Shown piece by piece: positions 2,363-23,083 of a DNA stretch of 64,000 nucleotides. The notes below the pieces were generated by a model. It was not told the origin of the DNA, ran no database searches, and worked only from the letters and a program-made list of their open reading frames with translations. This DNA is from Acidobacteriota bacterium (GTDB taxonomy: Bacteria; Acidobacteriota; Terriglobia; Versatilivoradales; Versatilivoraceae). Numbering within the stretch: the stretch's first letter is position 1; the number at the start of each line of letters is the position of its first letter. The position numbers and the translations under genes are program-made. The DNA is taken from the NCBI GenBank assembly GCA_022616615.1, contig JAKEER010000513.1, positions 1-64,000 on the forward strand. Direction: 5' to 3'.

Positions 2363-2379
2363 GGGTTAACCTCCTTCGG

Positions 2380-3701: not shown

Positions 3702-3716
3702 TTCTCCCTCCCTACC

Positions 3717-5805: not shown

Positions 5806-5822
5806 GCAAGTCTCCAGTCTCG

Positions 5823-6596
5823 TCAGCGGGCACGAATCTCGCTGACCTCGTTGGCGAGTTTCAGAAAGAAGCGCTTCCCATCTTCTCGTGTGAGCACACG
5901 GTGCACGGTGTAGTACTCGCCTTCATCCGTGAACTTGACGGGCTCCAGCTTTTTGGGATCGTTCTTCTCTCCGATGTAAACCACGGGCCGGTCCTGGGAT
6001 TTGGCCAGGTGAATGTAGGTGAAGATGCGGTCGTCGGAGACCTTAGTGATCTTGAAGCGCTCGTCTTTGATGTCGTAATTGCTGTTCAGTGAGAACAGCA
6101 TCGCTTCCTTCACCTGTTTGGCGTTTTGGTCCAGGGCGGATTGCAACTGCGCCTGGCCGGCTTCCACCCGCTCCTTGACCAGGTTTTGCGCCTCGGTCCG
6201 GACCTTGTCTTTGAAGAACTGCAGGTTGCTGGACTGGATGATGACCAACTGGTCGACGAACTCGCTGGGCTCAGAAGACAGGTAAAAAACAAAGAGCTTC
6301 TCGTTATCGGTGAAGATTGAAACGGAGGTGCTCTTGTTGGGGACGAGCGGGGTGACAATGCCGATCGTGCCGTTGGACTCGGCATGGAACCCTTTCGGGT
6401 CGGTGACTACAAAATCGTTAATCTTCAATCCTTCCGGGAGTCGGAAGGTGGTGCCTACGCCTACGACCGTGACGACTTTATAGACGCGAGTGGCATTCTC
6501 TCCGTCGAAGTCGCAAGTGAGCGTGCGGGGCTCGCCGGCCGAGAACAGTTGGGTCGAGAGCAAGACAACGAAAAGAAGCTGAAAGGTGCGAATCAT
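5823..6596 (-). CDS. virB9: VirB9/TrbG outer-membrane core protein
   Basis: The frame runs further upstream, but the ATG at 6596 is the start: it has AAGGAGG just before it, overlaps the virB8 stop as ATGA, and begins a signal peptide (MIRTFQLLFVVLLSTQLFSAGEP). The mature protein of about 235 residues has the N-terminal VirB9 beta-domain (TFRLPEGLKINDFVV) and a C-terminal beta-domain (DERFKITKVSDDRIFTYI through PVVYIGEKND). These two domains, joined by a helical linker, define VirB9/TrbG. It packs around VirB10 in the core complex. Confidence 0.88.
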   Translation of the reverse strand: MIRTFQLLFVVLLSTQLFSAGEPRTLTCDFDGENATRVYKVVTVVGVGTTFRLPEGLKINDFVVTDPKGFHAESNGTIGIVTPLVPNKSTSVSIFTDNEKLFVFYLSSEPSEFVDQLVIIQSSNLQFFKDKVRTEAQNLVKERVEAGQAQLQSALDQNAKQVKEAMLFSLNSNYDIKDERFKITKVSDDRIFTYIHLAKSQDRPVVYIGEKNDPKKLEPVKFTDEGEYYTVHRVLTREDGKRFFLKLANEVSEIRAR

Positions 6597-7234
6597 TGTC
6601 CCTCCTTGAATTGGCTTTGGCGGTACTCGAGCACAATCAAGCCGTGGGGATTGCGCTGGGAGCGCTTGATGGGCTTGATGAGCAGGACCGTTTGGTACTG
6701 GCCCTCTTCCAGGACCTCGGTAGTTTGGGAGAGTGCCTTCGCTTGGAAGTACACCTGGACCTTGAGAACCGGCTGAGTCTCGGTGATCAGGACACTCCGG
6801 ATTTCGGCAACACCCTGCGCATTGCGGGTCATCAACTCGGAGCGGTGGGCCAAGTTGACGGCCTCTTTGATCTGGACCAAGGCTTCTGGAGTCGCCCACT
6901 TCACTACGGATTCGAGGTTTGTTTTGACCGTGAAGCGATTGTAGGTGAAGAGCTCACCCAGAAAATCTTCACAGAACTTACGGATCTCGACCGGAGCGCG
7001 GTGTTCGCCAGCCGCATCAATGACGCTGAAATCCACCGCCAGGGCGTCACCCGTGGCTTGATTGATGACAATAGGCAGCACGCGCTCGGTGCGGCCCTCG
7101 ACAACCTTGCCGGCCAGGACCGCACCCAGGAGCAGCGCCGTCAGGAGCAGCACCAGAACGATCAGCTTCAGCCAAGTGTTGACAAAGGCCAGGTTGCCGC
7201 TGGAACGGATGAAATCATCGGTTGGGCGAGACAC
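6593..7234 (-). CDS. virB8: VirB8/TrbF inner-membrane assembly factor
   Basis: A protein of 213 residues with a GTG start preceded by AAGGAGG. It has one membrane segment near the N-terminus (LIVLVLLLTALLLGAVLAG, about 24-42), then a periplasmic NTF2-like domain ending in beta strands (QYQTVLLIKPIKRSQRNPHGLIVLEY shape). This topology and its position directly before virB9-virB10 identify VirB8/TrbF, which nucleates the T4SS at the inner membrane. It shares an ATGA overlap with virB9. Confidence 0.82.
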   Translation of the reverse strand: MSRPTDDFIRSSGNLAFVNTWLKLIVLVLLLTALLLGAVLAGKVVEGRTERVLPIVINQATGDALAVDFSVIDAAGEHRAPVEIRKFCEDFLGELFTYNRFTVKTNLESVVKWATPEALVQIKEAVNLAHRSELMTRNAQGVAEIRSVLITETQPVLKVQVYFQAKALSQTTEVLEEGQYQTVLLIKPIKRSQRNPHGLIVLEYRQSQFKEGQ

Positions 7235-7243
7235 GTTTCCTCC

Positions 7244-8215
7244 TTACTTGCCGAGTGCGGCGCGTGCCGTGGAGCTAAGCTTGCTGCCGACCGTCTGCGC
7301 GGCACCCGCTCCCGCCCGCGCCGCTGCGCCGGTGGCAGTCCCGGTGGCACGGACCAGGGCGCCTCCGGCAATCAGGTTGGCGCTAATGCCGGCGACGCCG
7401 AGTGCAGTCGAGCTGGCGCCCGAGCCGGCCGCTCCGCCGATGAGGGCATTGACCACTTTGTTCGTCGAAAGGACCACACCTACGGACAGGATCGGCCCGA
7501 TAACCTGGGTGACGATTTGCGGCACGGATGGTAATCCGAACGGTGCGGGAATCGCGGCTCCCGCAATGGAGGCGGCCATTCTCAACGCAGCTCCGTAGAG
7601 CGGGATCAGCAGGATGTAGGACAGAACAGCTGCCAGCCAGCGCTGGCTGTGGCCACGAAAGTCGCGGTCGAATGCCAGGGCGAAGAAGACGGGCCCGAGG
7701 ACGAGGTTCAGGGCCAGGACGGTGATCGAGCCGGCAATGTTGAGAAAGATGAGTGCATAGCACAGAAAGAAAATGAGCACGCCTAGCATGCTGAGAATGG
7801 CCCCGAAGCTAAGGTTGACGAGGCTTCCCAAGATTGTGGCTACCAGCCCTTGGCTGTTTTCCGTGGCTTGGGTGGAGGTCTGCATGAAAGCCATGCCTCC
7901 AGCCATTTGGTTGAAGACCTCATTCAGGTCCGGGTAGAAGGCGACGGCGAGCAGTTGAACCGCCCGAAAGAGGCTGGAGGATAACTGTGGCCAGATGCCG
8001 AACATGCCGGCGATGAAGAGGTATTTGACGAGGATCCTGGGCAGCTCGGAGCGATTGCCCACAGCCACCTGCAGTCCCTCCTGCAGGAACACTTTGAACA
8101 GAAGGAAACCCCAAAGGATGGCGCCTAAGGCGGTGTAGACGGCCACGAAATCGGTTCCCCAGGCGCCGCGCAGACCAAACCAAAGCGTATCCATGAGCCA
8201 GGACAAACTGATCAT
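7244..8215 (-). CDS. virB6: VirB6/TrbL polytopic inner-membrane protein
   Basis: A protein of 323 residues with at least six hydrophobic segments (among them FVAVYTALGAILWGFLLFKVF, LGVLIFFLCYALIFLNIAGSI, VLALNLVLGPVFFALAF and AAVLSYILLIPLYGAALRMA). The C-terminus is Ala/Gly-rich (ATGTATGAAARAGAGAA), as is common in TrbL/VirB6. These proteins form the inner-membrane part of the T4SS channel. The start overlaps the upstream exported protein as ATGA and has AAGGAGGAAA before it. Confidence 0.85.
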   Translation of the reverse strand: MISLSWLMDTLWFGLRGAWGTDFVAVYTALGAILWGFLLFKVFLQEGLQVAVGNRSELPRILVKYLFIAGMFGIWPQLSSSLFRAVQLLAVAFYPDLNEVFNQMAGGMAFMQTSTQATENSQGLVATILGSLVNLSFGAILSMLGVLIFFLCYALIFLNIAGSITVLALNLVLGPVFFALAFDRDFRGHSQRWLAAVLSYILLIPLYGAALRMAASIAGAAIPAPFGLPSVPQIVTQVIGPILSVGVVLSTNKVVNALIGGAAGSGASSTALGVAGISANLIAGGALVRATGTATGAAARAGAGAAQTVGSKLSSTARAALGK

Positions 8216-9048
8216 CGCGCGTTTCCTCCTTCAACTCGGCGGACAAAGAAGAATTGCTGGTGTTCCGGCTTCGTGGAGGGTTTGCCGTTCTCTGAAAAGA
8301 GAGTCCCGCTGACTTTGATTTCTTCCCTGAGGTTTAGCGGCTTGAAGAGAAAACAAAGCGCGTAGAGGCCCCAGTTGCTTTCGACTTCGGCTCGCAGGTC
8401 CGGGTAGCGATTGACGAGTTCGTTCGCCCTAACGGATTCCATCTCCAGCGCAGTGGATGTGCCTCGACTGTACAGAGTCGCCTTTGGGTTGAGGAACATT
8501 GGAATCGCCAAAACCAGAATGATCCGGTTGGGTTCGACGTGAACGTATCTACCCAGAACGGACAAAGCGGTGTAGTTTTCGTAGGGCAAGTACTGGAGCA
8601 CTTCATATCCGTTCCATCGCCCGTTGAACCAGAGATTCATGGCAGGACAGCCGGGGGAGCGCGGGTCAAGTCTCTGGAATGATACGGACCTGCCATTGGC
8701 CGTGAGGCTCAGGAGCCTACCCATCGGGATATGGAAAAAGGAGACTCCTCCGGCCGCGATTCCTGGGCGAAACCGGCCCGGCATGAGTGTAGGCGCCGCC
8801 TCGGTTTTCTTGCTCTTGAGGTGCACCAGCCGAACGCTGGAGACTTGCGGATTCTCTGTCCACACCGGATCGATGAACATCACCACACGCTGGGTGACGT
8901 ACTGGTAGTAGCTGCGGTCCTGGCCATCCAACAGGATCTTGTAGCAATACGACGGGGCGTTTTTCGAAACGGGCTCCTCGGCGAGGGCAACAGGACCACA
9001 GGTGGTAAGGAGCGAGAAAGCCAAGAGGCTTGGGAAGATAGGGTTCAT
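8212..9048 (-). CDS. Exported T4SS-operon protein, no known family
   Basis: A protein of 278 residues with a signal peptide (MNPIFPSLLAFSLLTTCGPVALA-EE). The mature part is beta-rich and contains four cysteines (SYCYK, PGCPA, ALCFL and one in the leader). It lies between virB5 and virB6, where known trb/virB systems carry only small accessory genes such as the TrbK type, and it is much larger than those. ATGA overlap with virB6 and an AAGGA ribosome site show it belongs to the operon. It may be an adhesin or a pilus-tip/periplasmic core component, which is inference from location only. Confidence 0.65.
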   Translation of the reverse strand: MNPIFPSLLAFSLLTTCGPVALAEEPVSKNAPSYCYKILLDGQDRSYYQYVTQRVVMFIDPVWTENPQVSSVRLVHLKSKKTEAAPTLMPGRFRPGIAAGGVSFFHIPMGRLLSLTANGRSVSFQRLDPRSPGCPAMNLWFNGRWNGYEVLQYLPYENYTALSVLGRYVHVEPNRIILVLAIPMFLNPKATLYSRGTSTALEMESVRANELVNRYPDLRAEVESNWGLYALCFLFKPLNLREEIKVSGTLFSENGKPSTKPEHQQFFFVRRVEGGNAR

Positions 9049-9059
9049 GATAGCTTTCC

Positions 9060-9827
9060 TTAGCGGTTGCGAGTCAGTTCCAGCAGCTGGTCAAGATTGC
9101 GGACATCGCCTGGTTGGGCCTGGATCTCGAGCTGCTTCATCTTCATGATGAGATTGCGGGCTTCCTTCTGTTGCGTCAGCAGGCGCTGCTGCACAATCTT
9201 TTGTTCCGCCTGGATGGCAGCGACTTCGATCAAAATGGCGTTCGTCAGCGCAATCTGTTGGCTGAGTGCGATCTCGTTTCCTTCCGTGTCTTCTCCCAGA
9301 ACCAAGCCACCGTTGCGCGCCTTGAAGCGCTGCAAGGCTTCGTGGTGAGCCACATCCTGTCCCTGCAGTTCCAGAAGATGAGCTTCCTCCCGTTTCAACT
9401 GCTCAATCTGTTGCTCGGAGAGTTGAATCAGATTGTCGGTGTACGTCCTGTACTCGGGTGAGCGCGTGTAGAGAGGACTGGTTGTGAGCGACAACACCTG
9501 GGCGTCATAGGCCGCCTGGTCAAAGGTCTTCCAGATTCCGATGACGTGATCTCGCAGACGTGCCCAGTCCGAAGGGATAAAGTCCTGCCAATCCCCCGAA
9601 GAGAGCCGGCGGTAGATCTGGCGAAAGTTTTTGAAGTACTTCTCAAATTCGAGCTTGTACTTATCGAACTCGTCCTTATAGGTCAGGAACGTCTTATAGT
9701 GGGCGGCTGTTTGGATGAACTGCGAGGCGCGCTGGGCGAGCGCGGCCGTGTCGGTGAAGATAAAGGCATCGGCCCGCCCAGTCAGGCCAAACAGGAACAA
9801 AGCTGCCGTCATCATCAGTCTCTTCAT
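9060..9827 (-). CDS. virB5: VirB5/TrbJ-like pilus-associated protein
   Basis: A protein of 255 residues with a signal peptide (MKRLMMTAALFLFGLTGRADA-F) and an almost entirely helical mature part: repeated aromatic/charged helices (YKDEFDKYKLEFEKYFKNF), a central LTTSPLYTRSPEYRTY segment and a long C-terminal coiled coil (LIEVAAIQAEQKIVQQRLL). This is the pattern of TrbJ/VirB5, the minor pilus-tip/assembly protein, and its place between virB4 and virB6 fits the trb order E-J-L. GGAGG ribosome site. Confidence 0.78.
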   Translation of the reverse strand: MKRLMMTAALFLFGLTGRADAFIFTDTAALAQRASQFIQTAAHYKTFLTYKDEFDKYKLEFEKYFKNFRQIYRRLSSGDWQDFIPSDWARLRDHVIGIWKTFDQAAYDAQVLSLTTSPLYTRSPEYRTYTDNLIQLSEQQIEQLKREEAHLLELQGQDVAHHEALQRFKARNGGLVLGEDTEGNEIALSQQIALTNAILIEVAAIQAEQKIVQQRLLTQQKEARNLIMKMKQLEIQAQPGDVRNLDQLLELTRNR

Positions 9828-9841
9828 GAGTGCCTCCGTTT

Positions 9842-10225
9842 CTATAGTGTCTGTTCAGACTGCAAGCGCTGCTTTTCGGTCTCTCGCCTTGCAGCCTCCC
9901 GAAGCGAGGCTTTCTCCTGTGCCTCCGGATAGTAGGCCAGAACGAGATCCTGCCATTGGCCAGCGACAAAAAGCCGAGTGCACGGGTGGTTGGAGGCCAC
10001 GAGTTGCTCGTTAGCATGGGCTGTCACGTAACCTCTATAGTCATCTACGAAGACCCTTACGCCGCTCTCCTCCCAGAGGTACTTGGGACCCGGCCTGCCT
10101 ACTTCACGGCCAAGCTCCCTGCCAACCGTGGCCAGTCGCTGGAACACGCCGCTCTTTCGCGCTTCCTCATACTGCGTGCGTTTGAGCTGCTTCAATTCTT
10201 CAAGGCTCATTCCTTCGGTTTCCAT
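9842..10225 (-). CDS. Hypothetical cytoplasmic protein between virB4 and virB5
   Basis: A protein of 127 residues, AGGAG ribosome site at the first ATG (a second in-frame ATG is five codons on). A charged N-terminal helix (SLEELKQLKRTQYEEARK) and C-terminal helix flank a beta-rich centre (KYLWEESGVRVFVDDYRGYVT and LFVAGQWQDLVLAYYP). No signal peptide. No family recognised. The conserved operon position suggests a role with the VirB4 ATPase or in regulation, but this is not shown. Confidence 0.6.
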   Translation of the reverse strand: METEGMSLEELKQLKRTQYEEARKSGVFQRLATVGRELGREVGRPGPKYLWEESGVRVFVDDYRGYVTAHANEQLVASNHPCTRLFVAGQWQDLVLAYYPEAQEKASLREAARRETEKQRLQSEQTL

Positions 10226-10243
10226 GACTTGCTCCTGCCTTTC

Positions 10244-12805
10244 TCAATGAGCGCCGCGCGCCGTGTGCTGAAGGGCCGCGCCAGCCGGTGCCAGCCCTAG
10301 GTGCTCGGACACTAGCCCGGCCATGCGTTGCTCCAGATAGGGTTCCAGAATTTCTAACCGCTCTTTGGTCGTGCGGCACTGTCCGGTTAAGCGGACCAGG
10401 TCGTTGACGGCATTTCCGACGCTGCCGTGATGAAGTTGTGTCATGAGGCGCCGCATGTCTCTTTCTTCGCTCTGGGTGGTGGCCAGCCAATAGGTATGGG
10501 GATCGGTCACGGGCCGAAGGATGCGGCGCAAGCCTCCAGCCGACCAATAGAGGACTTCATGCTTGGCTGGGTCGAGGCTCTTGTATTGCTCGATGTGGTA
10601 ATCGGTCATCTGGAGCTTGCGCAGGGAAGCCTCGACGTCGGGCTGGCCGGCAAAATAGAAGGCCTGCTTGAGATTAGTAATGATGGCCCGTGACCAGGGC
10701 TGGTCGGGCCGATCTAAATCACCCAGGGACTGGGTGATGATGTCGAGCATGATGTTCCAGTGCCGGCCGGTGCGGACAATCAGGGAAATCCAGAATGCGA
10801 ACGCCTCGTCGGTCAGATAACGGTGGGCCTCATCCAGGACAAACCGCTTTTCGACGCGCCGGAGGGATTCGTCGACCGTGCTGTCGTAGACCTTGGAGAA
10901 GATGACGTAGACGATGGCGGTCATCAGCTCAGGCTCACCGTCGAGGTCCCGGAGATCGAAGTAGCAGTAACGCGCACTCTTCAAGCTATCCTGGCCGGAG
11001 TTGAACATCTCGCCCCGGCGGCCAACGGTCCAGAGCTTGAAAGCACTGGCCAGCTCGAAGTTCTTGAACTCCATCTGCATGATGCTGGCCAGCAAGGTGA
11101 GTGGCGGAATGGGTGTGTGCTGCTGTTGGTTGCGGAGCAACATCCGGTAGCCATTAAAGAACTCGGTGAGGCCGTTGCGCATGGCCATCTCATTGGCCGG
11201 GGTGGTCAGGTCTCTGCCGGCCATCAGCTTCAGGAGCCCCATGCAGAACTCGAACTGCTCGTCGCTGACAGGTTGAGAAGGATCATCGATGGTGAACGGA
11301 TTGAAGTGGAAACTGGTCTGCGACTTCGAAACACGCATGATTGCCGTCTCAGACGGCATCTCCTCTCGCAGGAACTCAAACAAGTCACCGTAGGAGTTGG
11401 AGAGATCCACCACCCAGAGCATGGGGTTCACAATGAGGTGAGAAAGAATGTCCTTGATGACGAAAAAACTCTTGCCGCCGCCGGTTGGGCCGCAGACGGC
11501 TCGGTGCCGAGCCTTTTCGCGGCTGGTGAAGGGGTTGTAGGCGAAGACACCATGTAAACGATCTTCCAGGTAGTCCACCGGATCAGAGTCGCCCCGGTAG
11601 AGGATGTAGGCGCTGAGCAAGTCGCCAGCATTGCCGGAAGCAATCAGCGACCTCCGCAAGTAGAAGCGATCATGCCCGGGAAACGTGGAAAAGAAGGCTG
11701 GCCGGAGATTACGTTTTTCGAGGATCCCGAAGCTGCCGATGTCCTTGAGCAATCCCATCACTTGAGTTTGGCGGGAGCGGAGCGTTTCCTTATCTTTGGC
11801 ACGGACGAGGACCGAAAAATGCCACCAGAGTGGAAGTTCCTTCTCGTTCTCGATGCGGCTGCGGAAGTTCTTGATTTCCTCGACGTACTGCAGATTCTTC
11901 GGATCGACTGCGGACAGGGCTAAGGCAATCGGCGTGTTGAAGTCTTGTTCCTTGTACAACCGTTGCTTGTTGTTGCAGAAGCCGATGGACTGACGCAACA
12001 CAAGCGGAAAGGAGAGTTCGTAAAACCGCCTGAGGTAGAGGGCGAGAGAGGTGGGTGGCGGGTACTTGATGCCCACGACAGAGCAGTATTCCTGATCGTT
12101 AATGACGACGTGCTGTTCGGAGAAGACGTAGCGGCTGTGGGCGAGTTGAGCGTTCAAGGAAAGATCGGGACGATAGGCAGGCGGTTTTACGAAATTGATT
12201 AACTGATAGAGAGCCCGGAAAGATTCCGTGCGGTCCAGGGCCTGGAACCCAAAGCGGGCAAAGGCGTTGGAGAGCACCAGAAAGCCTTCTTCCAGCTTTT
12301 GAGCGTCCAGACGGACCTGGTCCCGGTAAAACCGGAAGAGCTTGCTTTCCTGGACGAGCAGATTCCAGGGTGGTGCCTTTCTCCTGGGATTGAAGTAACG
12401 CAAGGCGCAGAAGATGCGATTGCCGAAACTGCGAGCCACGATGCCGTCCCAGAAACGTTGCTTGTTGTCTTCCACGAATTGAATCAGTGGATGTGCCTGG
12501 GGATTGCTTTTAAGTGGAATGGGCTCGGGCGTGTCGCGGACCAGGAGGTTCGAAAGCATGAAGCCGGCTCCTTCATCGGGAAGCTGCTCGAGCGCCGTGT
12601 GGGTGTAATAGCTGTACTGCTGCTTGTCCTCTTCCGAGAGGCCCTCGTAGTCGAGACCGCCAAGCTCGAATAAGACCAGCAGCCCGCCATCCTTCATTAG
12701 GATCAGAGGCAACGTATGATCGGGGAGGAAATCAACGTAGAGAAGCGCGTTTTCAAGCTTTTGTTCGTACTTGTTAATACTTCTGAGCAGGTCGCGAAAC
12801 CTCAT
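10244..12805 (-). CDS. virB4: VirB4/TrbE secretion ATPase
   Basis: The largest T4SS gene, about 853 residues. Start chosen at ATG 12805 (MRFRDLLRSIN) because GAGG lies seven bases before it; ATG 12817 and TTG 12823 are alternatives. The N-terminal half is the CagE/TrbE/VirB4 domain; the C-terminal half is a RecA-like ATPase with Walker A GPTGGGKSF (about 438-446), a DLSNSYGDLF strand after it and Walker B FVLDEAHRYL (about 655-664). VirB4 energises pilin extraction and pilus assembly at the inner membrane. It overlaps the end of virB3 by about 32 bases, so the two are coupled. Normal length, no defects seen. Confidence 0.94.
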   Translation of the reverse strand: MRFRDLLRSINKYEQKLENALLYVDFLPDHTLPLILMKDGGLLVLFELGGLDYEGLSEEDKQQYSYYTHTALEQLPDEGAGFMLSNLLVRDTPEPIPLKSNPQAHPLIQFVEDNKQRFWDGIVARSFGNRIFCALRYFNPRRKAPPWNLLVQESKLFRFYRDQVRLDAQKLEEGFLVLSNAFARFGFQALDRTESFRALYQLINFVKPPAYRPDLSLNAQLAHSRYVFSEQHVVINDQEYCSVVGIKYPPPTSLALYLRRFYELSFPLVLRQSIGFCNNKQRLYKEQDFNTPIALALSAVDPKNLQYVEEIKNFRSRIENEKELPLWWHFSVLVRAKDKETLRSRQTQVMGLLKDIGSFGILEKRNLRPAFFSTFPGHDRFYLRRSLIASGNAGDLLSAYILYRGDSDPVDYLEDRLHGVFAYNPFTSREKARHRAVCGPTGGGKSFFVIKDILSHLIVNPMLWVVDLSNSYGDLFEFLREEMPSETAIMRVSKSQTSFHFNPFTIDDPSQPVSDEQFEFCMGLLKLMAGRDLTTPANEMAMRNGLTEFFNGYRMLLRNQQQHTPIPPLTLLASIMQMEFKNFELASAFKLWTVGRRGEMFNSGQDSLKSARYCYFDLRDLDGEPELMTAIVYVIFSKVYDSTVDESLRRVEKRFVLDEAHRYLTDEAFAFWISLIVRTGRHWNIMLDIITQSLGDLDRPDQPWSRAIITNLKQAFYFAGQPDVEASLRKLQMTDYHIEQYKSLDPAKHEVLYWSAGGLRRILRPVTDPHTYWLATTQSEERDMRRLMTQLHHGSVGNAVNDLVRLTGQCRTTKERLEILEPYLEQRMAGLVSEHLGLAPAGAALQHTARGAH

Positions 12806-13127
12806 TACGAGCCTCATGGTCAAGCAGTTTCATGCGTTGGAGAGAAAGCGCCTGGGAATTGAACTCCCCTTTGAGAAAAGGGGTGACGTTGGAATCTAGT
12901 GGATCTCGATTGTCCAACCAGAAAGACGCTGCATAGAACCCGGCCGTGACCAACACGGCAAAGACGATGACGGAGATCTTGAGAAAAGCTGATCCGCGGT
13001 TCACCAGTGCGAAAGACACGGTCATGATCAGGAGGCCGATGCCCAGTGAGGCAAAGAGCTTGAGATAGGTGACTCCCCAGATCCTGGGCACGTGCTGGAT
13101 GTTGCGGAAAATCGGCGTCTCTTTCAT
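12774..13127 (-). CDS. virB3: VirB3/TrbD-like small membrane protein
   Basis: A protein of 117 residues with two adjacent membrane segments (YLKLFASLGIGLLIMTVSFAL and FLKISVIVFAVLVTAGFYAA) and a cytoplasmic C-terminal tail. A small two-helix protein between virB2 and virB4 is the signature of VirB3/TrbD. It starts four bases after the virB2 stop and overlaps virB4. It is a little longer than many VirB3 proteins. Confidence 0.78.
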   Translation of the reverse strand: MKETPIFRNIQHVPRIWGVTYLKLFASLGIGLLIMTVSFALVNRGSAFLKISVIVFAVLVTAGFYAASFWLDNRDPLDSNVTPFLKGEFNSQALSLQRMKLLDHEARNEVSRPAQKY

Positions 13128-13131
13128 CTGG

Positions 13132-13440
13132 CTAAGCGATGAAGGTATTGGCCAAGAAGCCTAAGACGATGCCAACGATCGCAAAGATGAGCGCGGTCAT
13201 CGAATCTGTGTCTCCCTGGCTGAGTTTGTAAGCGGTGCGCCCGAGGCCCACGAGGCCAACAAGACCGGCAACCAGCGTGCCGGCTGCCACGGCAATGGTC
13301 CGGATATCGGTGATGGCACCCTGGAAGGCGGGCGCGACAGTCGTCTGGGCCTGTAGCGCCACTGGGGCCAGGATTAAGACAACGGCCACCATTGCAGGAT
13401 TCCGGGCGATGAGTGTGAACGGTAGGGTTCGGACTTTCAT
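13132..13440 (-). CDS. virB2: VirB2/TrbC pilin
   Basis: A pilin precursor of 102 residues: a long signal sequence (NPAMVAVVLILAPVALQAQ-TT), a short polar loop, then two hydrophobic helices (IRTIAVAAGTLVAGLVGLVGL and MTALIFAIVGIVLGFLANTFI) separated by GRTAYKLSQGD. This is the standard VirB2/TrbC architecture; the processed subunit would be about 70 residues and form the conjugative pilus. First of the recognisable core genes, four bases before virB3. Confidence 0.86.
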   Translation of the reverse strand: MKVRTLPFTLIARNPAMVAVVLILAPVALQAQTTVAPAFQGAITDIRTIAVAAGTLVAGLVGLVGLGRTAYKLSQGDTDSMTALIFAIVGIVLGFLANTFIA

Positions 13441-14148: not shown

Positions 14149-16797
14149 TTACTTGCGGGAACGCCCTGAACCACCCTCTCCATGTAGAGTGAATCCAGCC
14201 CAGAAGTATGGAGAAGCATCCTTGCGGTACTGGCGGATGATGTCGAGTTTGGCCATTCGCAGAGCCGAGCCTTTGGCTTCCCCTCGAGCCAGATAACCAT
14301 AGAAGCGCTTCATCAGGTTGGCAGTGGAATCGTCGCCCACCTTCCAAAGGCTGGCCACCACCGTCCTGGCACCGGCGTAGAAGAAGGCCCGCACCAGATT
14401 CACCATGCCTTCCTGTTCCTGCAGGCGACCCAGGTAGGTGTCACACGCTGAGAGCACTACCAACTCTGCATTCAGATTCAAATGACGAATATCGCGTTCT
14501 TGCAGCAGGCCGTCCATTCCCGAGTTTGGATCTCTCCCGAGAACCAGCGAGGATCGGTCTGGAAACGTCGCATCGGAAAGGGCGTGTACCGCAAAGTGAA
14601 GGATCCTGAAAACAGGAAGATTCTGGGATAAGAAAGCGGCCTTGGTGGCATTTGGGCCGATCAACGTGATGCTTCTGTTTCCCATGATTCCAGCGATCGC
14701 CTCGACTTCGTCTGCCGATCCTGGAAGAGGCTTAAGGCGGCTGAGAGCAGAATCCCACGGACCACCGGACGTGCTCATGGCCTGAGGGGATACCTGCTGA
14801 ACGTGACTGATTTCCTGGCCATAGGGAACTCCTCCGATACCTAAGAAGGGCAATTGTCCTCTTTCCGTGGTGTGGGCCGTGCTGAGCAAATAATAGACTG
14901 TTGCTGATGGAGCCACAGAGACGGTGTGGGACTGCAAGACAAATTGCCCTCTGGAATCCACCAGCGACTCGAAGGGCAAGAGATGAAGTTTGCCGTCAGG
15001 GACAATCGTGAGGTGGCTAAACTGGTCTGGACTTCTCAGCACAGGGCGAAGCAACATCGAGTAAAGCTGCTTAGCTCTTTGGATCGTTGGTTTCGCTGAC
15101 CGGAGGTCCCCTAGATGGCCGTCTATTAGCGACTCAAGCTTCTTTCGCCCGGCTAGCGGCACAATGTCGAAGTTCCGCATGGTGATGATCAGGCAATAGG
15201 AAGCTGGCTCGCTCAAGACATATTCAAGAACGACTTCGTCCGGATCGAGAATGCTGCTCAGGTATTCAACAGAAACAGGACTGCTGCGGATCGTGAGTTC
15301 CTGGAAGCGCGTTCGAGGCTGAGGAATCGAATTCAATCTTTCCTTAGCTCGCCAGAGTTGGTCGAGTAGTGCATTGGTCTGGTTTCGGTTGCTGAGGTTT
15401 GTGAACTGCAGTCGGATTTGTATCTGGTTGATCTCCTTTTCCAGGGCCTTGGTCTCTTCATCCGATTTTGGAACTGCAGGCGAATGGTCTCGGATCGCAT
15501 CGGCCACGGCTCGGCCTCTTGCCCTTTCCAGAATCTCGAAAGCTCTGGGCTTGTCCTTCAGGTACTCGACGGCCAAAGTGAAGTGGCCAACGTAAATGGC
15601 GCTCATTGTGGCAATCAGAGAGCTCTTCGAAAATGTGCTGGGAGCATTTGCCAGCATCGCTTCTGTGATATCAGCAGCTTGCTCCAGAAGTCTATCCGCT
15701 TCCCGGAATCGGCCTCGCTTTGCCACCAACTCTGCTATGAGCGCCAGGTGCTGAGGCAAGTGGTATCGGTCCTGAACCTGACGCATGGCATCCATGGCCA
15801 GGTTGGCTCGGTCTTCGGCTTTCTGGAGATTACCGTTGTCCCGGTACACCTTTGCCAACTCGAACATGCTCCAGGCCATGGTGTGGTGAAAGCCTCCATC
15901 AATGCAGAGATTTCGAGCGACTTCTAGGTAAGACGCAGCTAATGGAAGATTGTTTTCTGACGCGGAAAGTTTCGCTAGCAGGATCAGATAGTAAGCTTCA
16001 TCAAGACGTCGTTTGAGGGAACGGACCACTTTCAGATTCTTCTCCAACATCTTTCGTGCTTCAGCCCGATTCTGGAGTTCACCCAATGAGCGCGCCTTTC
16101 CGGCATACGCGATATAGGGGAAGCCCGCATCTGACAACGTTGCGGCTAGGCTCAGAGCCTCGTCCAGGAACTTAATGGCTTGATCGTGAAGTCCGAGCTC
16201 ACCCAATCCGTTCCCAATAGTTGTCGCATACCAAATCTGCGCTCCGACATCGCCAAGGGATTCGGCAGAGTGAAATGCCTCCCTCATTAGTTCTTGAGTC
16301 CTATAGATGTCGCCTTGAAAGAATGCGATGTATCCAAGTTTTCCCTGGGCTCTCGCTTCCCATGCCTTGTCTCCCAGTTGTTCAGCGAGTGATCGGACCT
16401 CCTCCCATGCGCGCTGAGCTGCTGGCGGATCGATCTCAATGTCCACTTCTGCTTTCGCGACCAACCATCGCAACTTCAGATGGGCGTCATTGTGAATGAT
16501 AGGATTTTCCATCTGTGCTGCAAGACTACGCGAGAGGTCTGGCAACGAGCGACTTTGGAAAGATGCCTGGATGTTTCCGATCCGGGCGTAAAGTGCGTTC
16601 TTTGTGTCTCCGTCCTGACTGAAGAGAATCTCGGCGCGTTCATACAACGGCCCGGCTTGGATCCAATTGTTGAGCCAGGCCAGGCGATCTGCTTCTTCGA
16701 GCAACCGCTCGGGATTTTGAATTTGGGAGTCTAAGCGCAACCCGAAAGCAAAGATGTTAATCAGAGAGATAATCAGAAATTGATGTAGTCTTTGCAC
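14149..16797 (-). CDS. TPR-CHAT protein (caspase-like protease)
   Basis: The frame is open to 17043, but the first part overlaps the divergent phosphorylase gene, so I take the GTG at 16797, which starts a signal-anchor (VQRLHQFLIISLINIFAFGL). That gives 882 residues; the ribosome site is weak and the start is uncertain. Residues about 35-470 are TPR-like helical pairs. The C-terminal 300 residues are a CHAT domain: LTIVPDGKLHLLPFESL, the catalytic His in ILHFAVHA (about His738) and catalytic Cys in VVLSACDT (about Cys785), then ARTVVASLWKVGDDSTA. Both catalytic residues are present, so it should be an active clan-CD protease. The TPR part would bind a partner or sensor. Neighbours (sigma factor, anti-sigma factor, phosphorylase) suggest signalling. 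Confidence 0.85.
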   Translation of the reverse strand: MQRLHQFLIISLINIFAFGLRLDSQIQNPERLLEEADRLAWLNNWIQAGPLYERAEILFSQDGDTKNALYARIGNIQASFQSRSLPDLSRSLAAQMENPIIHNDAHLKLRWLVAKAEVDIEIDPPAAQRAWEEVRSLAEQLGDKAWEARAQGKLGYIAFFQGDIYRTQELMREAFHSAESLGDVGAQIWYATTIGNGLGELGLHDQAIKFLDEALSLAATLSDAGFPYIAYAGKARSLGELQNRAEARKMLEKNLKVVRSLKRRLDEAYYLILLAKLSASENNLPLAASYLEVARNLCIDGGFHHTMAWSMFELAKVYRDNGNLQKAEDRANLAMDAMRQVQDRYHLPQHLALIAELVAKRGRFREADRLLEQAADITEAMLANAPSTFSKSSLIATMSAIYVGHFTLAVEYLKDKPRAFEILERARGRAVADAIRDHSPAVPKSDEETKALEKEINQIQIRLQFTNLSNRNQTNALLDQLWRAKERLNSIPQPRTRFQELTIRSSPVSVEYLSSILDPDEVVLEYVLSEPASYCLIITMRNFDIVPLAGRKKLESLIDGHLGDLRSAKPTIQRAKQLYSMLLRPVLRSPDQFSHLTIVPDGKLHLLPFESLVDSRGQFVLQSHTVSVAPSATVYYLLSTAHTTERGQLPFLGIGGVPYGQEISHVQQVSPQAMSTSGGPWDSALSRLKPLPGSADEVEAIAGIMGNRSITLIGPNATKAAFLSQNLPVFRILHFAVHALSDATFPDRSSLVLGRDPNSGMDGLLQERDIRHLNLNAELVVLSACDTYLGRLQEQEGMVNLVRAFFYAGARTVVASLWKVGDDSTANLMKRFYGYLARGEAKGSALRMAKLDIIRQYRKDASPYFWAGFTLHGEGGSGRSRK

Positions 16798-16924
16798 GAC
16801 TGCTCTGAATTTCGATCTAATTTGCCTGAAATCGAAACTATGTTTTCGGAAGGCAAATTCAGATTCTGGTTCGGTGTAAGATGGAAGTCTGGATGCGAGC
16901 AAAAGCAGGACAGTCTGGAGGCTT

Positions 16925-17845
16925 GTGAAAAGATTGATTCTGAGACATAAGATGCTCCTGACTGTCGTACTCTGCGTTCTCGTCCTGCTGCTATACTTCC
17001 GCAACCCTTGGCCGACCGCGACAAGAGGACCAGGGATCATCACCCAAGGAAGTCCGATGAGCGTTGTCTATGCTTTTGCAGCCACAAAGATCGAGGGCGA
17101 CTCCGTTGGGCACCTCGTGACTCGCCTCGACGGCGATGCCGCAAACGTCAGTCGCGGGCGAATCGGAACGAACGATGTCTTTCTGTTCATCACCGGCATT
17201 GGTCCAAAAAGGGCGAAAGCCAGAGCCTCGACTGTGCTGCTCAGCCCAACGGCAACAGCCAACGGCCGATCCACCGTTGAACGGCCTGACGGGGTTCTTG
17301 TCCTTGGCACCTGTGGCAGCTTGAACAGTTTCCTTGCCGAGGATGAGGTCATTGTCTATCGGCAATGCCTCGCCACTGACAACAATTCTGCCCGAGCGCT
17401 CTGCACAACACCATTGGCAGAACACATCACGTCTGTCCTTAAGTCGAAGGGTATTAATCCTCGGTCAGCTATTGGCATCTCATCGCCACGAATTGCCACG
17501 ACGAAACAGGAGAAGCTCACGTTGGCCAAGACTGGGGCAGACGTCGTGGACATGGAGAGTTTCGAAATCATTGTCGTGGCCAATCAAGCTCGGTTGCCCG
17601 TCGCGGTAATCCGGGTTGTGTCAGATTCTTTGGAACGGAAGATCCCTGACCTAAATTTCGCTCTGCTGGATAACGGCGAGATCGATACTCTTAAGGCCCT
17701 AAGAGTTGCCATCGGTTCGCCGATTCGCACGGCAAGGGTGTTGGCGGCATCGAAGCGGGCGCTCAAGAAGTTGAGCGAGGTTCTGGAAATTGTTTTGAGT
17801 AGCGATGCCTATGCCATGCTGCCTTCGGAAACTACATCAGGCTGA
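16925..17845 (+). CDS. Membrane-anchored nucleoside phosphorylase-superfamily protein
   Basis: A protein of 306 residues from a GTG with GGAGG just before it. One membrane segment (MLLTVVLCVLVLLLYF, about 10-25) is followed by a PNP/UDP-phosphorylase-like domain: FITGIGPKRAKA (phosphate/ribose loop), VLVLGTCGSL, VVDMESFEI (the family's Met-Glu nucleoside-binding motif) and VIRVVSDS (Ser-Asp of the base pocket). It resembles MTA/SAH nucleosidases and hopanoid-cluster phosphorylases. It would cleave a nucleoside; the substrate cannot be read from sequence. It diverges from the TPR-CHAT gene and ends 6 bases from the convergent TonB receptor. PNP domains and CHAT domains both recur in prokaryotic conflict and signalling proteins (family knowledge). 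Confidence 0.75.
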   Translation: MKRLILRHKMLLTVVLCVLVLLLYFRNPWPTATRGPGIITQGSPMSVVYAFAATKIEGDSVGHLVTRLDGDAANVSRGRIGTNDVFLFITGIGPKRAKARASTVLLSPTATANGRSTVERPDGVLVLGTCGSLNSFLAEDEVIVYRQCLATDNNSARALCTTPLAEHITSVLKSKGINPRSAIGISSPRIATTKQEKLTLAKTGADVVDMESFEIIVVANQARLPVAVIRVVSDSLERKIPDLNFALLDNGEIDTLKALRVAIGSPIRTARVLAASKRALKKLSEVLEIVLSSDAYAMLPSETTSG

Positions 17846-17851
17846 AACAAC

Positions 17852-20800
17852 TTAGAAGAAAAACTTCAAACTGAATTGGATTTGTCTTGGCCCAAACGCG
17901 GCCACGGGCCTGCCGCCCTGGGTGAAAGAATTGTCGACTTCACGAACATTCACCCGGTTAAAGAGGTTGAATGCGTCCACACTCAAATCAATGATCCTGG
18001 CCTCGCCGATGGAAACATGACGCGTCAACCTGATATCGACTGAAGCAAAGCTAGGCGTTCTGTAAACGTTCCTACCAAGGTTCCCCACCGAGCCCAGCCG
18101 AGGCAGCGCCAGCGCTACTATCCCGTCTGGAGAAGGGAAACTTCCAGCTGTACCCAAAGGCACCACATCAGGCCGGGCCGTCTCTGAACTGTTGATCAGC
18201 GTACTATCTCGAAAAGTCAGGAGATTGTATGGGCGGCCGGAAGACACCTCAATGACCGGCGCAACTGTCCAGCCTCGCAAGAGACCACGAATGGCCGGCA
18301 AGTTCGAGAATCGAGTCGGGCTGTCAAAAATGCCGCTTACGACGAACCGGTGCCGCTGATCGAAGTTCGAGTTTCCGCGCTCCAACCGGGTGTTCGTATT
18401 GTCCTGAGGTTCCTGGAGGGATAGAAGATCGGTTGAATCATCGATCGCGTGCGACCAGGTCCAAGATCCCAGCATTTGGTAATGACGTGAGAATCTCTTG
18501 TTGAGTGTCGCTGTCACTGCGTGATAGACCGAAGACCCGGATGACTCATACTGCTTCACATTGAAAACAGGGACAAATGCATTGTTTGGCGCGTGGGGCA
18601 GTCCAAAGTTCCTCACCAGCGAATCCATCACCGGTTTTGAAAAGGAGCCACCAGAAACGCTATTTGCCCAAGCGTAATTGGGACCGGTCGCTCGAAATTG
18701 ATTGAAGATCAATTGTCCGAGTGGGGCCAGGGAGGTGGCCGATTTCCCACCAAGCGCATCCCACAAACCCGCTAGTGGCCCGGCCCCGCCACCATAAATT
18801 GAAGTCGCGCATCCGTTGGCTGAGACCTCTGGAACGCCTGGGCAGATTGCTGACGCGCGCTCGTAGGCAACGATCAGATCGTAATTGCCTTGGTTGATGT
18901 TTCTCGGGCGTAGGAGATGCGCCCCGTGCGCATATGTGTAGTCCACACCAAGCGTCATACTGGTAGCTAGCTGCCGTTCAATCCCAAAGGTGCCTTGGAG
19001 AGCAGAGTCGTACTGGAACTTCCTTGCCACAGGAAATGTCTGTGCTAGGAGGGGGCTCAGCGTCAAGGCGCTATTCTGGTTCGAGAATACTGGAGAAAGC
19101 GGATCAAATCGTTGCGCCGCGCCATCGTAACCTAGAGCAGGATTGGCAACTGCTTGACCGAGCAGACCGGTAAAGGCACGTCCTTGGAATAGGTCGTCGG
19201 CACCGACCTTATGCGGTGCAAGCAGATAAGGTGACTTGGTTCCATCAACCACATTCGAGAGGAAGGCGATGGCCAGTAACGGGTGTCCATAAAACAGCCC
19301 GTAGGAACCACGGATCACTGTCTTCCCATTGCCGGCTGGATCCCAGGCAAAACCGGCCCGAGGTGCCCAGTTGTTCCTGTCGCGTGGAATACCTTGCGTC
19401 ACTCCGAGCAGGTCTTGACCAATCTCTGATAGTTGATTGCCCGCCAAAAATCGCGGTGTGAACTCCACGTCGTAGCGCAAGCCATAATTCAATGTAAAAT
19501 TGCTCGCGATTTTCCAGGAATCCTGAATGAAGGCCCCCAGGGTCGTATTCTTCAGGCGGGCCTTGGCATTCTCAAAACCACCAAACTGCTGAACGAATGA
19601 GTCCGGCAGGCCAAACCCGTATGCCTGAGCTGCCGAGAACGCAGGAGCGTCGCTTAGTTTCCATGCAGACGTCAATGACGATCCCATCACAGCCGTGATG
19701 ATTGGGTCGTCGACGGCCAAAGCTGCAGGAAAGAAGTAAATACCCGACTGATTAATTGGGAAGATTGCTTTTACCGGAAGAATATTGAAGTCCGTTCCCA
19801 TCTTCAGCGTGTGCGATCGGCGGATGTACGTGATGTTGTCAGCAACTTGCCAGCGCTTCTCGGTTCGAAATAACGGAGCAAACTGCTGTTGGCCAATCGA
19901 TGCGACTCCAGGGATTTCTACCGCCACTTGAGAGGAGTTTGGTGTTAGGGACGCGCCACGTCGTGCAAACTGAAACCGGAATTCACTCAGCCAAGTCGGA
20001 CTGATCTGACTTGTGAGCTGCGACGCAATAGCGAGATCACGCGTCGAGCTATTGGATGTTCTGGAGAAAGCATTAAGCGCTGTTACCTGGTTTTGACTGT
20101 TACTCTGAAGGCCCGTGAGATCGGATGGACTCACACTGAAACGGCCAAAGAGATTCTGGTCGCTCGAAAACTTGTGGTCCAAGCGAGCGGAATAGAAGTA
20201 AGTCGTCTCTGTTGTCTTGTAATTCCCGACTTCCGTCGCTAGTCCACGAAAGGACGCGGGCAGAGGGTTCGGGACCAATCCAAAGGTGATCGGGCCCCCA
20301 GGAGTATTGCCCCGGATCGCCACATCAGCTCCAGCAGTTGCCAAGAGTGCATAGGGGATCGCCACCGCTGGCTCCACACGCTGGAGATATTCTTCCTGCT
20401 GCGAGGTCAGCAAGGCGCTTGTCTGAACTCCTCCAGGCAGCTTGAAAGGGACTCGCTTTAACTCAAAGTTGTCGCGTCCAATCTCAGAGAAGTTGATTGA
20501 GTTTGCCTGAGCGGTTTCAAAGGAGATGAAACCGAACGTCTGGTCTTTCTTGATCGGACCGCCCAACGTGGCCCCCGTTTGAGTGCGAGTATCCCCAGGA
20601 TCAGATTCGCCGGCGAATGCATTGGTCGCCGAGACTTTGCGGCTACGAAGATAGCCGAACACATTCCCTCGCCATTGATTGGTGCCCTGTTTTGAGACAA
20701 TGTTGATCACGGCGCTGGAGGCTCTGCCATGCTCAGGCGTATAGCCACTTTTCAGGATTTGAAACTCCTGAACGGCCTCCTGAGACACCGTTGCACGGAC

Positions 20801-21436
20801 GCCATTGACCGAGTTGTCCATCACGTCTGCTCCGTCGATGCTGACGAAATTCGCTCGCGACCGCTGCCCGTTGATATTGAGACCACTCGTCGGAGCGGGC
20901 GCCAGAATTGGTTGATTGTCTCGAGTGGCGGCGGAATCCAGTAGCGTGAATTGAATGTAGCTACGTCCGTTGATGGGCAGATCCTCGATCGCCCTCTGGT
21001 CAATGGTGGTAGCAAGGGATGATCGCGTCGTTTCGATCGTTGTGTTGGACACTAGAATATCCAGCGCCTCAGCCAAGACACTGATCTGAAGTCTCACAGG
21101 CAAGTAAGCCTTTTGGCCAACGGTGAGCGGAACATCTTGCATAACTGCCGTGCGGAAGCCTTTGGCCTCGACTCTGATTTTGTATCGAGCCGGTGGCAAT
21201 GAGATAAAGCTGTACTCGCCCGTCTCGCGGCTGGTGGTCTCCCGGACAAGCCCAATTTCTGGGTTCTCGATTCTAATGTGAACACCGGCGATCGCGCTAT
21301 CTGAAGGATCAGTAATCACGCCCTGGAGGTCGGCAGTGCTCACCTGAGCTCGGATCGAGAATGGCGTAAGAGCAGCGAACAGCACAGCAGTGCCAAAAAC
21401 AATTCTAGGAAAGATTCTTTCAGTATCGAGAATCAT
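17852..21436 (-). CDS. TonB-dependent receptor with carboxypeptidase-regulatory domain
   Basis: About 1194 residues from ATG 21436 (MILDTERIFPRIVFG; another in-frame start lies ten codons upstream). Signal peptide, then a Cna-B/carboxypeptidase-regulatory-like domain (VSTADLQGVITDPSDSAIAG through YKIRVEAKGF), a plug domain (TIDQRAIEDLPINGRSY, GLNINGQRSRANFVSIDG) and a large beta-barrel with OmpA-related/Oar features (WRGNVFGYLRS, NNWAPRAGFAWDP, FDQRHRFVVSG). It ends in aromatic LKFFF, as outer-membrane barrels do. The gene is intact, unlike the two other receptors in this window. It is about 200 bases downstream of the anti-sigma gene on the same strand. Ligand unknown. Confidence 0.9.
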   Translation of the reverse strand: MILDTERIFPRIVFGTAVLFAALTPFSIRAQVSTADLQGVITDPSDSAIAGVHIRIENPEIGLVRETTSRETGEYSFISLPPARYKIRVEAKGFRTAVMQDVPLTVGQKAYLPVRLQISVLAEALDILVSNTTIETTRSSLATTIDQRAIEDLPINGRSYIQFTLLDSAATRDNQPILAPAPTSGLNINGQRSRANFVSIDGADVMDNSVNGVRATVSQEAVQEFQILKSGYTPEHGRASSAVINIVSKQGTNQWRGNVFGYLRSRKVSATNAFAGESDPGDTRTQTGATLGGPIKKDQTFGFISFETAQANSINFSEIGRDNFELKRVPFKLPGGVQTSALLTSQQEEYLQRVEPAVAIPYALLATAGADVAIRGNTPGGPITFGLVPNPLPASFRGLATEVGNYKTTETTYFYSARLDHKFSSDQNLFGRFSVSPSDLTGLQSNSQNQVTALNAFSRTSNSSTRDLAIASQLTSQISPTWLSEFRFQFARRGASLTPNSSQVAVEIPGVASIGQQQFAPLFRTEKRWQVADNITYIRRSHTLKMGTDFNILPVKAIFPINQSGIYFFPAALAVDDPIITAVMGSSLTSAWKLSDAPAFSAAQAYGFGLPDSFVQQFGGFENAKARLKNTTLGAFIQDSWKIASNFTLNYGLRYDVEFTPRFLAGNQLSEIGQDLLGVTQGIPRDRNNWAPRAGFAWDPAGNGKTVIRGSYGLFYGHPLLAIAFLSNVVDGTKSPYLLAPHKVGADDLFQGRAFTGLLGQAVANPALGYDGAAQRFDPLSPVFSNQNSALTLSPLLAQTFPVARKFQYDSALQGTFGIERQLATSMTLGVDYTYAHGAHLLRPRNINQGNYDLIVAYERASAICPGVPEVSANGCATSIYGGGAGPLAGLWDALGGKSATSLAPLGQLIFNQFRATGPNYAWANSVSGGSFSKPVMDSLVRNFGLPHAPNNAFVPVFNVKQYESSGSSVYHAVTATLNKRFSRHYQMLGSWTWSHAIDDSTDLLSLQEPQDNTNTRLERGNSNFDQRHRFVVSGIFDSPTRFSNLPAIRGLLRGWTVAPVIEVSSGRPYNLLTFRDSTLINSSETARPDVVPLGTAGSFPSPDGIVALALPRLGSVGNLGRNVYRTPSFASVDIRLTRHVSIGEARIIDLSVDAFNLFNRVNVREVDNSFTQGGRPVAAFGPRQIQFSLKFFF

Positions 21437-21663
21437 GGCTGGCCTCGAGATTATGTTGTGAACCAAAGGCCAAGAGGGAAATCAGAAGGGGAGCACGTGC
21501 CTTCGGGTACGATGGTTTCGATGGAAACTGCTGGTGGATCTCCTTCCGAACCAGTGAGGCTAGGACACGTTGAAATTGGATTCTATTTAGAAGTTCAAGG
21601 GGACGACTCGCTTGAGTTTTGGCATGTTGTGGCTTAGTCGAATGCGGACGGATCGGTCCCCCT

Positions 21664-22464
21664 CTATTGTCTTTCGGATGTGATAGCCTTCGATTCTTCC
21701 CTTAAGTTCAGCGGGTATTTGTTCCATCCCGACTCAAACCGGCGGATGCCCAAGCTGTACTTCCCCGCTGGAAAATTGCCTGTATCGATGTTTACGGTCA
21801 GGACATTGAGATGACCTCGCATGCCCGCCTTACCTCTTGCCATCGGGGATTGAGCCTGCGTTCCGAAGATACCGACTTCGTAATCCCCTTCCTCGCTTCC
21901 AATGGGCAAGTAGATCGAGAGTTGTATCCGTCCTCTTGGTAGAACCAAATCTCCTTTTTGGTTGTTGCTCTCTCCGCGGGTCACGCCACGCCTTCGTAGG
22001 TCTAAGACCGCTACTTGCACTTCAGCCGGTTTCTGTTCCTGAGTTGAAGGCGGCACCGGGCTTGGAACAGGAGAGGCAGGCTGTGGCGGAGCCTTCACGA
22101 TGGGAGGTGGCCCGGGAACAATCGAGCCCGGACCTGTCATCAGCTTCCACGAGATCCAGAAGCCGACCCCCACTACTAAGACTGCTACTGCCGCAAGACG
22201 GTAAAGCCTTTGGCGAGATTTGTACTCCCGCAGAAATACTCTGTGCTCTTGAAAACAGGGCGAGCACTTTCCGATGTGAGTGACGACAGCCTCAGGATTG
22301 TCGAGCTTGCGTCGCCAACCGAGCGCTCTGAGAACCTCACCACCCGGGCAGCCAATGCGTTGAGGGTTAGGAAAGTCATGTTGAAATGACTCACGAAAGG
22401 AATCTAGGATCTCGCGCTCGTCTCTTGGCGAAACATGCTTGTCGTTCGGAGGTTTCTTTGCCAT
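21664..22464 (-). CDS. Zinc-finger membrane anti-sigma factor
   Basis: Start at ATG 22464 (MAKKPPND), 35 bases after the sigma-factor stop; 266 residues. The N-terminal part has the anti-sigma zinc-finger signature His63-x3-Cys67-x2-Cys70 (VTHIGKCSPCFQEH) with an upstream Cys39. One membrane segment follows (RLAAVAVLVVGVGFWISWKL, about 89-108), then a Pro-rich linker and an extracytoplasmic beta-rich domain (VAVLDLRRRGV through GKYSLGIRRFES). This is the expected layout of a membrane-bound sigma regulator: the finger holds the sigma factor in the cytoplasm while the outer domain senses a signal. Coupled to the ECF gene. Confidence 0.78.
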   Translation of the reverse strand: MAKKPPNDKHVSPRDEREILDSFRESFQHDFPNPQRIGCPGGEVLRALGWRRKLDNPEAVVTHIGKCSPCFQEHRVFLREYKSRQRLYRLAAVAVLVVGVGFWISWKLMTGPGSIVPGPPPIVKAPPQPASPVPSPVPPSTQEQKPAEVQVAVLDLRRRGVTRGESNNQKGDLVLPRGRIQLSIYLPIGSEEGDYEVGIFGTQAQSPMARGKAGMRGHLNVLTVNIDTGNFPAGKYSLGIRRFESGWNKYPLNLREESKAITSERQ

Positions 22465-22498
22465 GGTGTCTGGTGGCCTTAGCTGCGGGCCGCTTGAA

Positions 22499-23083
22499 TT
22501 AGAGCTTGCGAAACCTTTTCCGAATCGCCTGAAGGGTCTGGCAGTACTGTACCCTGGCGCTTTTGTGTGAGACTCCAAGAAGTTGACCGATTTCCTTCCA
22601 AGAGTAACCCTGATCGATTTTCATGACTATCAGGTTTCTTTCGTAGTCGTCGAGGGATCGGAGAATCCTTTGGGCTTCCAGCCACCCGAGAATTTGGCTT
22701 TCCAAGTTGTCATCAACAGGCTGGCTATGAAATTCTTCCTCATCCGACTGTCCAACAGCCAAGTCCTGGGTCGCGAGTCCGTTCACTTCATGAATGAACG
22801 CCGAAAAGAGGTAATTTGGAATGTCTTTCACGGCGTCTCTTCTTCCATTGCGGATCACTTTCGAGGTGGCCTGAAGAACCTTCCAGGCAGCTCCCAAGGC
22901 AGCGCCTCCATCTCTCAGTCGGCGTTTTGTGTATGCATTCATTTGTGGCCAGAGTGAAATCGCCGCGTCGATGAGACGTGGGTCAAGGAGCCTCCCGTCG
23001 CTGTCGAGCCAAAAATCAGCATCTGCCGCAGGTAGGTCGGGGGGCTTGGGAGTTCGTCCGGGTGAAACGCTGTTGCTGTCCAT
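22499..23083 (-). CDS. ECF-type RNA polymerase sigma factor
   Basis: A protein of 194 residues. The C-terminal region 4 is clear: LDDYERNLIVMKIDQGYSWKEIGQLLG, then VSHKSARVQYCQTLQAIRKRF, which is the -35-binding helix-turn-helix. The region 2 part (AYTKRRLRDGGAALGAAWKVL) is divergent from textbook ECF factors. The first 30 residues are Pro-rich and probably disordered. The downstream zinc-finger gene is its likely antagonist. It probably controls the adjacent receptor and perhaps itself; I see no matching pair of promoters that would show this. Confidence 0.8.
   Translation of the reverse strand: MDSNSVSPGRTPKPPDLPAADADFWLDSDGRLLDPRLIDAAISLWPQMNAYTKRRLRDGGAALGAAWKVLQATSKVIRNGRRDAVKDIPNYLFSAFIHEVNGLATQDLAVGQSDEEEFHSQPVDDNLESQILGWLEAQRILRSLDDYERNLIVMKIDQGYSWKEIGQLLGVSHKSARVQYCQTLQAIRKRFRKL

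Follow-up and report, generated by a model that had tools for sequence, protein, structure and literature searches.

Single-pass anti-sigma factors of the RseA/DegS/RseP and FecR types are first cut on the periplasmic side and then within the membrane. In the CalpL-CalpT-CalpS system, a protease cuts an anti-sigma-like protein and thereby frees a sigma factor. The active site of DdvA from Myxococcus xanthus is reportedly incomplete, and the papers on this protein are said to propose autoproteolysis in trans before cleavage by RseP. DdvA combines in one protein a zinc-binding cytoplasmic anti-sigma domain, one transmembrane (TM) helix and a TPR-CHAT part on the periplasmic side (PDB 8rot, 8rw5, 8rlz), and its partner is the ECF sigma factor DdvS, which controls a CBASS/CRISPR island in Myxococcus (PMC12288465). 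In type III-E CRISPR, a TPR-CHAT protease (Csx29), the sigma-factor inhibitor on which it acts (Csx30) and an ECF-like sigma factor (CASP-sigma) are encoded in one locus (PMC10028731). ECF54 sigma genes adjoin genes for CHAT-domain proteases, and proteolytic control has been proposed for them and discussed as protease regulation without an anti-sigma factor (PMC8999054).

We analyzed a locus with similar components in an Acidobacteriota genome (source assembly, 9.58 Mb), within a stretch of 64,000 nucleotides that is here called the window. The cassette lies on the minus strand and encodes, in the order of transcription, a sigma factor, an anti-sigma factor, an outer-membrane barrel and a TPR-CHAT protease. 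The features in and around it are as follows.

1106..13440, minus strand: near-complete VirB/Trb type IV secretion operon, downstream of the CHAT gene on the same strand, encoding a VirB11-like T2SSE protein, TrbI/VirB10, TrbL/VirB6, VirB4 and small membrane proteins
14149..16797, minus strand: TPR-CHAT protease, about 882 aa with GTG 16797 as start; hydrophobic N-terminus for predicted export or anchoring, TPR array, CHAT domain
14443-14445, minus strand: codon of the CHAT catalytic Cys785
14584-14586, minus strand: codon of the CHAT catalytic His738
17054..17845, plus strand: PNP_UDP_1 nucleosidase/phosphorylase-family protein, likely start about 17054, divergent from the CHAT gene
17852..21466, minus strand: CarboxypepD_reg and outer-membrane beta-barrel protein (PF25183), 1204 aa
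21664..22464, minus strand: membrane anti-sigma factor, 266 aa, likely start 22464; CHCC zinc domain (C39, H63, C67, C70), TM helix at about 88-110, Pro-rich linker, Ig-like outer domain
21976-21978, minus strand: codon of the invariant Arg163 of the anti-sigma factor, located in a flexible outer-domain loop
22499..23083, minus strand: divergent ECF-type sigma factor, 194 aa
23223-23923, minus strand, just upstream of the sigma gene: HigA-like HTH_37 regulator and a Gp49/HigB-like protein, which together are probably a toxin-antitoxin pair of type II

A preliminary description of this DNA had named an intact CHAT protease, a zinc-finger membrane anti-sigma factor with its ECF sigma factor, a nucleoside phosphorylase and a TonB receptor. 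The first four assignments hold. The 964-aa open reading frame of the CHAT gene was found to be over-extended at its start; GTG 16797 puts H738 and C785 exactly in register, and the protein matches PF12770 (E=1.3e-68) and TPR repeats in Pfam. The zinc ligands, single TM helix, Pro-rich linker and beta-rich outer domain of the anti-sigma factor are clear from the alignment and the structure model, and the phosphorylase matches PNP_UDP_1 (E=7e-18). The sigma factor is divergent: region 4 alone passes the Pfam cut-off, just above it, and the NCBIfam sigma70-ECF match lies below its cut-off. Its assignment is carried by a consistent family of sigma genes adjoining the anti-sigma gene across loci. 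The supposed TonB receptor is indeed an outer-membrane barrel, and its identity is revised to CarboxypepD_reg plus OMP_b-brl_4 (PF25183, E=8e-116), an abundant family.

The catalytic His and Cys columns were invariant in all 24 aligned class I CHAT proteins, and nearly all class I CHAT proteins have a hydrophobic N-terminus, predicted to be a signal peptide or TM anchor. The protease is therefore predicted to be exported and to share a compartment with the outer domain of the anti-sigma factor. In four of the loci used for comparison (L119, L126, L134 and L135), a single sigma/anti-sigma pair, or an anti-sigma gene alone, stands between two CHAT genes of about 950-1050 aa.

The anti-sigma protein of the window had no family match in Pfam, NCBIfam or PADLOC. 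We aligned 32 class I anti-sigma factors and found that they share a zinc domain (C-H-C-C in most), a single TM helix, a linker that varies in length, and a beta domain. In the window protein the beta domain was modelled confidently; its PDB matches were weak and mostly Ig-like. Only six residues are invariant in the 32 proteins, namely H63, C67, C70, R163, G193 and Y195. Three of them are zinc ligands (H63, C67 and C70), G193 and Y195 lie in the beta core, and the sixth is Arg163. Arg163 is retained in 32/32 class I outer domains despite a mean identity of 26%, and it falls within a stretch with a block-mean pLDDT of 57. Once class II is included, the position is basic in 53/56 proteins, in an alignment that is gappy there and may favor Arg. 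Clan CD proteases, such as separase and metacaspases, often accept Arg or Lys at P1. Together with the invariance of Arg163, this leads us to predict that the CHAT protease cuts after this residue. In three further loci (L117, L125 and L128), the anti-sigma profile also picks up long proteins (594-736 aa) that have no CHAT domain. The match covers their zinc-domain/TM part, and they appear to carry other output domains on a similar N-terminus.

We then considered whether this neighborhood is conserved, since the preliminary description had named missing co-occurrence in related genomes as grounds for rejecting a link between CHAT and the sigma pair. The neighborhood was found to be conserved across the phylum. 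The home genome contains 26 CHAT matches and at least 10 anti-sigma paralogues, and 7 of 10 paralogues share a contig with a CHAT gene no more than 8 kb away. The anti-sigma profile hit 40 of the 396 Acidobacteriota genomes searched. A CHAT gene lies within 12 kb in 26 of 36 class I anti-sigma loci, against 0.98 expected from CHAT density; the corresponding P value of 1e-36 ignores relatedness, and the loci span many genera and several families. Most of the class I loci without a nearby CHAT gene lie near contig ends, and gene maps of loci picked by anti-sigma similarity alone show the same neighbors. Tight sigma-anti-sigma-CHAT operons occur in L032 and L054. They are also seen in class II, which is more divergent, has a longer CHAT protein and shows the order sigma, anti-sigma, CHAT in L106, L110-L112, L114 and L118. 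Distances of CHAT and anti-sigma proteins correlate across genomes (r=0.71; 0.44 for distant pairs), and no such correlation was seen in the six home-genome cassettes tested (r=-0.09). The sequence distances may thus be taken to support co-inheritance across genomes and not among home-genome paralogues. The cassette is thus present in many copies in soil Acidobacteriota, and related cassettes also occur in Edaphobacter isolates. Neither the CHAT protein of the window nor the alignment of anti-sigma factors returned a match in a collection-wide search, and the plasmid collection contained no match to the window anti-sigma protein. Certain class I CHAT genes (L136-L139) are accompanied by a barrel and a PhoD-like gene, with no sigma pair in the fetched stretch.

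The genes accompanying CHAT vary among loci. The window barrel is 57% identical to that of a sister cassette in L028, and the next best barrels in the fetched loci reach about 32% or less. In L055 and L056 a PNP homologue stands immediately upstream of the CHAT gene, and PNP proteins also occur in L111. A Detocs-type ATP nucleosidase was considered for the window PNP protein and found to be unsupported, its best NCBIfam match being HpnG, below the cut-off. Other partners of CHAT are alpha/beta hydrolases (L028, L036 and L040), PhoD-like phosphatases (L031 by Pfam; L136, L138 and L139 by evident similarity) and S41/PDZ peptidases. No N-terminal hydrophobic segment or signal peptide was found in the 23 S41/PDZ peptidases near CHAT that were checked, and a role for them as Prc-like periplasmic site-1 proteases was rejected on this ground.

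To place the protease among known systems, we compared its structure model (pTM 0.77) with the PDB using Foldseek. The first two ranks were taken by DdvA (8rw5 and 8rot), followed by Csx29 and separase. The global TM-scores against DdvA were low (0.26-0.27), presumably as a result of TPR arrays that curve differently. DdvA also ranked first in a CHAT-domain profile search (1.3e-6), with its His and Cys positions retained in the alignment, and the window protein scored only 16.9 bits against the Csx29 model, which has a cut-off of 300. The zinc domain of DdvA was weakly matched by the window anti-sigma factor (E=0.11/0.28). A further tie comes from L127, in which a protein of 1152 aa joins the zinc domain, the TM helix and a CHAT domain with His and Cys kept, beside a sigma-like open reading frame; this fused form is represented by one example in one Acidobacteriota genome. 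Two more candidate fusions (L123 and L132) were rejected, as the zinc-domain match lies outside the CHAT open reading frame.

DdvA is thus a described relative of a gene set for which the preliminary description had known of no described counterpart, and it replaces Csx29 of type III-E as the nearest precedent. The proposed protease-sigma circuit is itself partly supported by the conserved neighborhood and the L127 fusion, and cleavage of the anti-sigma factor is plausible. Its location is changed: Csx29 is cytoplasmic and activated by RNA via Cas7-11, whereas export is predicted for the window protease and the inhibitor sits in the membrane. No Cas7-11 (gRAMP) was found among the annotated open reading frames of the island, and the module proteins gave no specific PADLOC match. 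Given the likeness to DdvA and the L127 fusion, the window system is best described as a split DdvA-like switch: in the window and the class I loci, the zinc domain/TM part and the TPR-CHAT part are encoded by two genes. Two more features set it apart from DdvA: the CHAT dyad is complete, and the anti-sigma factor bears an Ig-like outer domain of its own, containing the invariant Arg. The window system differs from ECF54 in having a membrane anti-sigma factor (PMC8999054), and its CHAT protease differs from CalpL of type III CRISPR, a cytoplasmic protease of the Lon family that is activated by cyclic oligoadenylate. Compared with RseA/DegS/RseP, in which the site-1 protease is a serine protease, it would be caspase-like (clan CD). 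CalpL also appears in PMC11417357. In PADLOC and PHROG, the module drew generic TPR and sigma matches and no specific family.

We propose, with a probability of roughly 60%, that the island is a trans-envelope switch, a two-protein counterpart of DdvA in which cutting of the anti-sigma outer domain frees the sigma factor. The basis of this reading is the conserved linkage, the invariant dyad, the predicted export and single-TM topology, the DdvA-like fold, one fusion and the invariant Arg. In the resting state, the ECF-type sigma factor would be tethered to the inner membrane through the zinc domain of its anti-sigma factor. The exported protease would sense an envelope signal via its TPR array, possibly through the adjoining outer-membrane barrel, and would then cut the anti-sigma outer domain, most likely after Arg163. 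Intramembrane proteolysis by a host protease of the RseP type could complete the release, and the freed sigma factor would transcribe its own cassette together with neighboring hydrolase and/or transfer genes.

In another reading, CHAT and the hydrolase are effectors or targets: the sigma pair would respond to a signal by way of a host site-1 protease (DegS- or Prc-type) and drive the expression of both, which would act on other substrates. This fits the finding that CHAT is often transcribed separately or convergently (e.g. L029, L060 and L100) and is immediately followed by a hydrolase gene, of the S41, alpha/beta-hydrolase or PhoD-like type, and caspase-like proteases and nucleoside phosphorylase-family domains have been described in bacterial conflict systems (PMC7159879). 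However, CHAT is predicted to be exported and its S41, alpha/beta-hydrolase and PNP partners mostly have no signal peptide, so that direct activation of these partners by CHAT is unlikely, and both the L127 fusion and DdvA place CHAT at the anti-sigma step. We regard this reading as rather unlikely. Signaling like that of FecA-FecR-FecI, with the barrel as receptor, the anti-sigma outer domain as its partner and CHAT as an accessory, appears improbable to us. The barrel does lie between anti-sigma and CHAT in the window and L028, adjoining CHAT in the latter, and directly upstream of CHAT in L031, L136, L138 and L139, but in most class I loci no barrel adjoins the sigma, anti-sigma and CHAT genes. 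Moreover, the window anti-sigma protein has neither a FecR domain nor another Pfam match, and more than 50 barrels of the PF25183 type occur in the home genome.

A third reading concerns the output and is compatible with the trans-envelope switch. Here the class I sigma factor would control the divergently transcribed VirB operon on its own mobile element, and the module would regulate conjugation. Of the 27 VirB4 genes that exceed the Pfam threshold in these genomes, 13 are found no more than 10 kb from a class I anti-sigma gene, typically in divergent orientation to the sigma gene. In addition, a palindrome stands upstream of CHAT in Edaphobacter-type loci, and in some of these it recurs on the VirB side, at times as a weaker copy. 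Yet no such module accompanies half of the VirB4 genes, many modules lack a VirB4 gene, class II genomes contain modules and no VirB4 match, and no common promoter was found in the regions upstream of sigma, CHAT and virB. Control of conjugation is therefore an unlikely output.

Genes for ParA or RepA-like proteins were found nearby in Edaphobacter-type loci, and known or candidate defence genes adjoin the module in several loci, including HmaA (L093), ZacABC (L094), TmtA (L099) and type I restriction (L107). PADLOC families numbered 69 near the modules and 10 in a control set (52 proteins from other regions), which hints at a defence role and is confounded by the frequent presence of defence genes on mobile elements. 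A new and complete relay, from the barrel through exported TPR-CHAT and a cut after the invariant Arg to the sigma factor, with numerous paralogues in each genome and interchangeable hydrolase cassettes, carried on conjugative elements and acting at the cell surface to warn of phage or invading DNA, seems to us possible but doubtful. The link between TPR-CHAT and sigma factors, known from type III-E CRISPR and one Myxococcus protein, emerges from these loci as a broad theme in Acidobacteriota envelope signaling. The Acidobacteriota module offers an intact, separate protease with a defined candidate substrate and a candidate site, which opens to direct test the idea that caspase-like proteolysis frees ECF sigma factors from the periplasmic side.

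A common sigma-dependent promoter motif for sigma, CHAT and virB was considered and rejected: an EM search of the upstream regions gave only a T-rich pattern at inconsistent positions, and repeated dyads in these regions were mostly near shuffled levels. In L100-L104, the palindrome ACACANNNNTGTGT lies upstream of CHAT, no more than about 50 bp from its start (e.g. L101:2294 and L103:5091). On the VirB side, a second exact copy was found in L103 (11277) and weaker copies in L100 and L101. Among the loci scanned, its occurrence upstream of CHAT is confined to those of the Edaphobacter type, and it is a possible operator. Other CHAT genes of the home genome lie near a different sigma gene (L033, L037, L038 and L045), and in L037, L038 and L045 a nearby protein with a RYLLGEL-type start resembles another anti-sigma family. 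In L105, a 21-base block upstream of sigma (TCTAYTAGCTAAGCGCGTTGA, at L105:3430) is repeated with one mismatch at L105:10994, on the minus strand, near partition-type genes of the same element.
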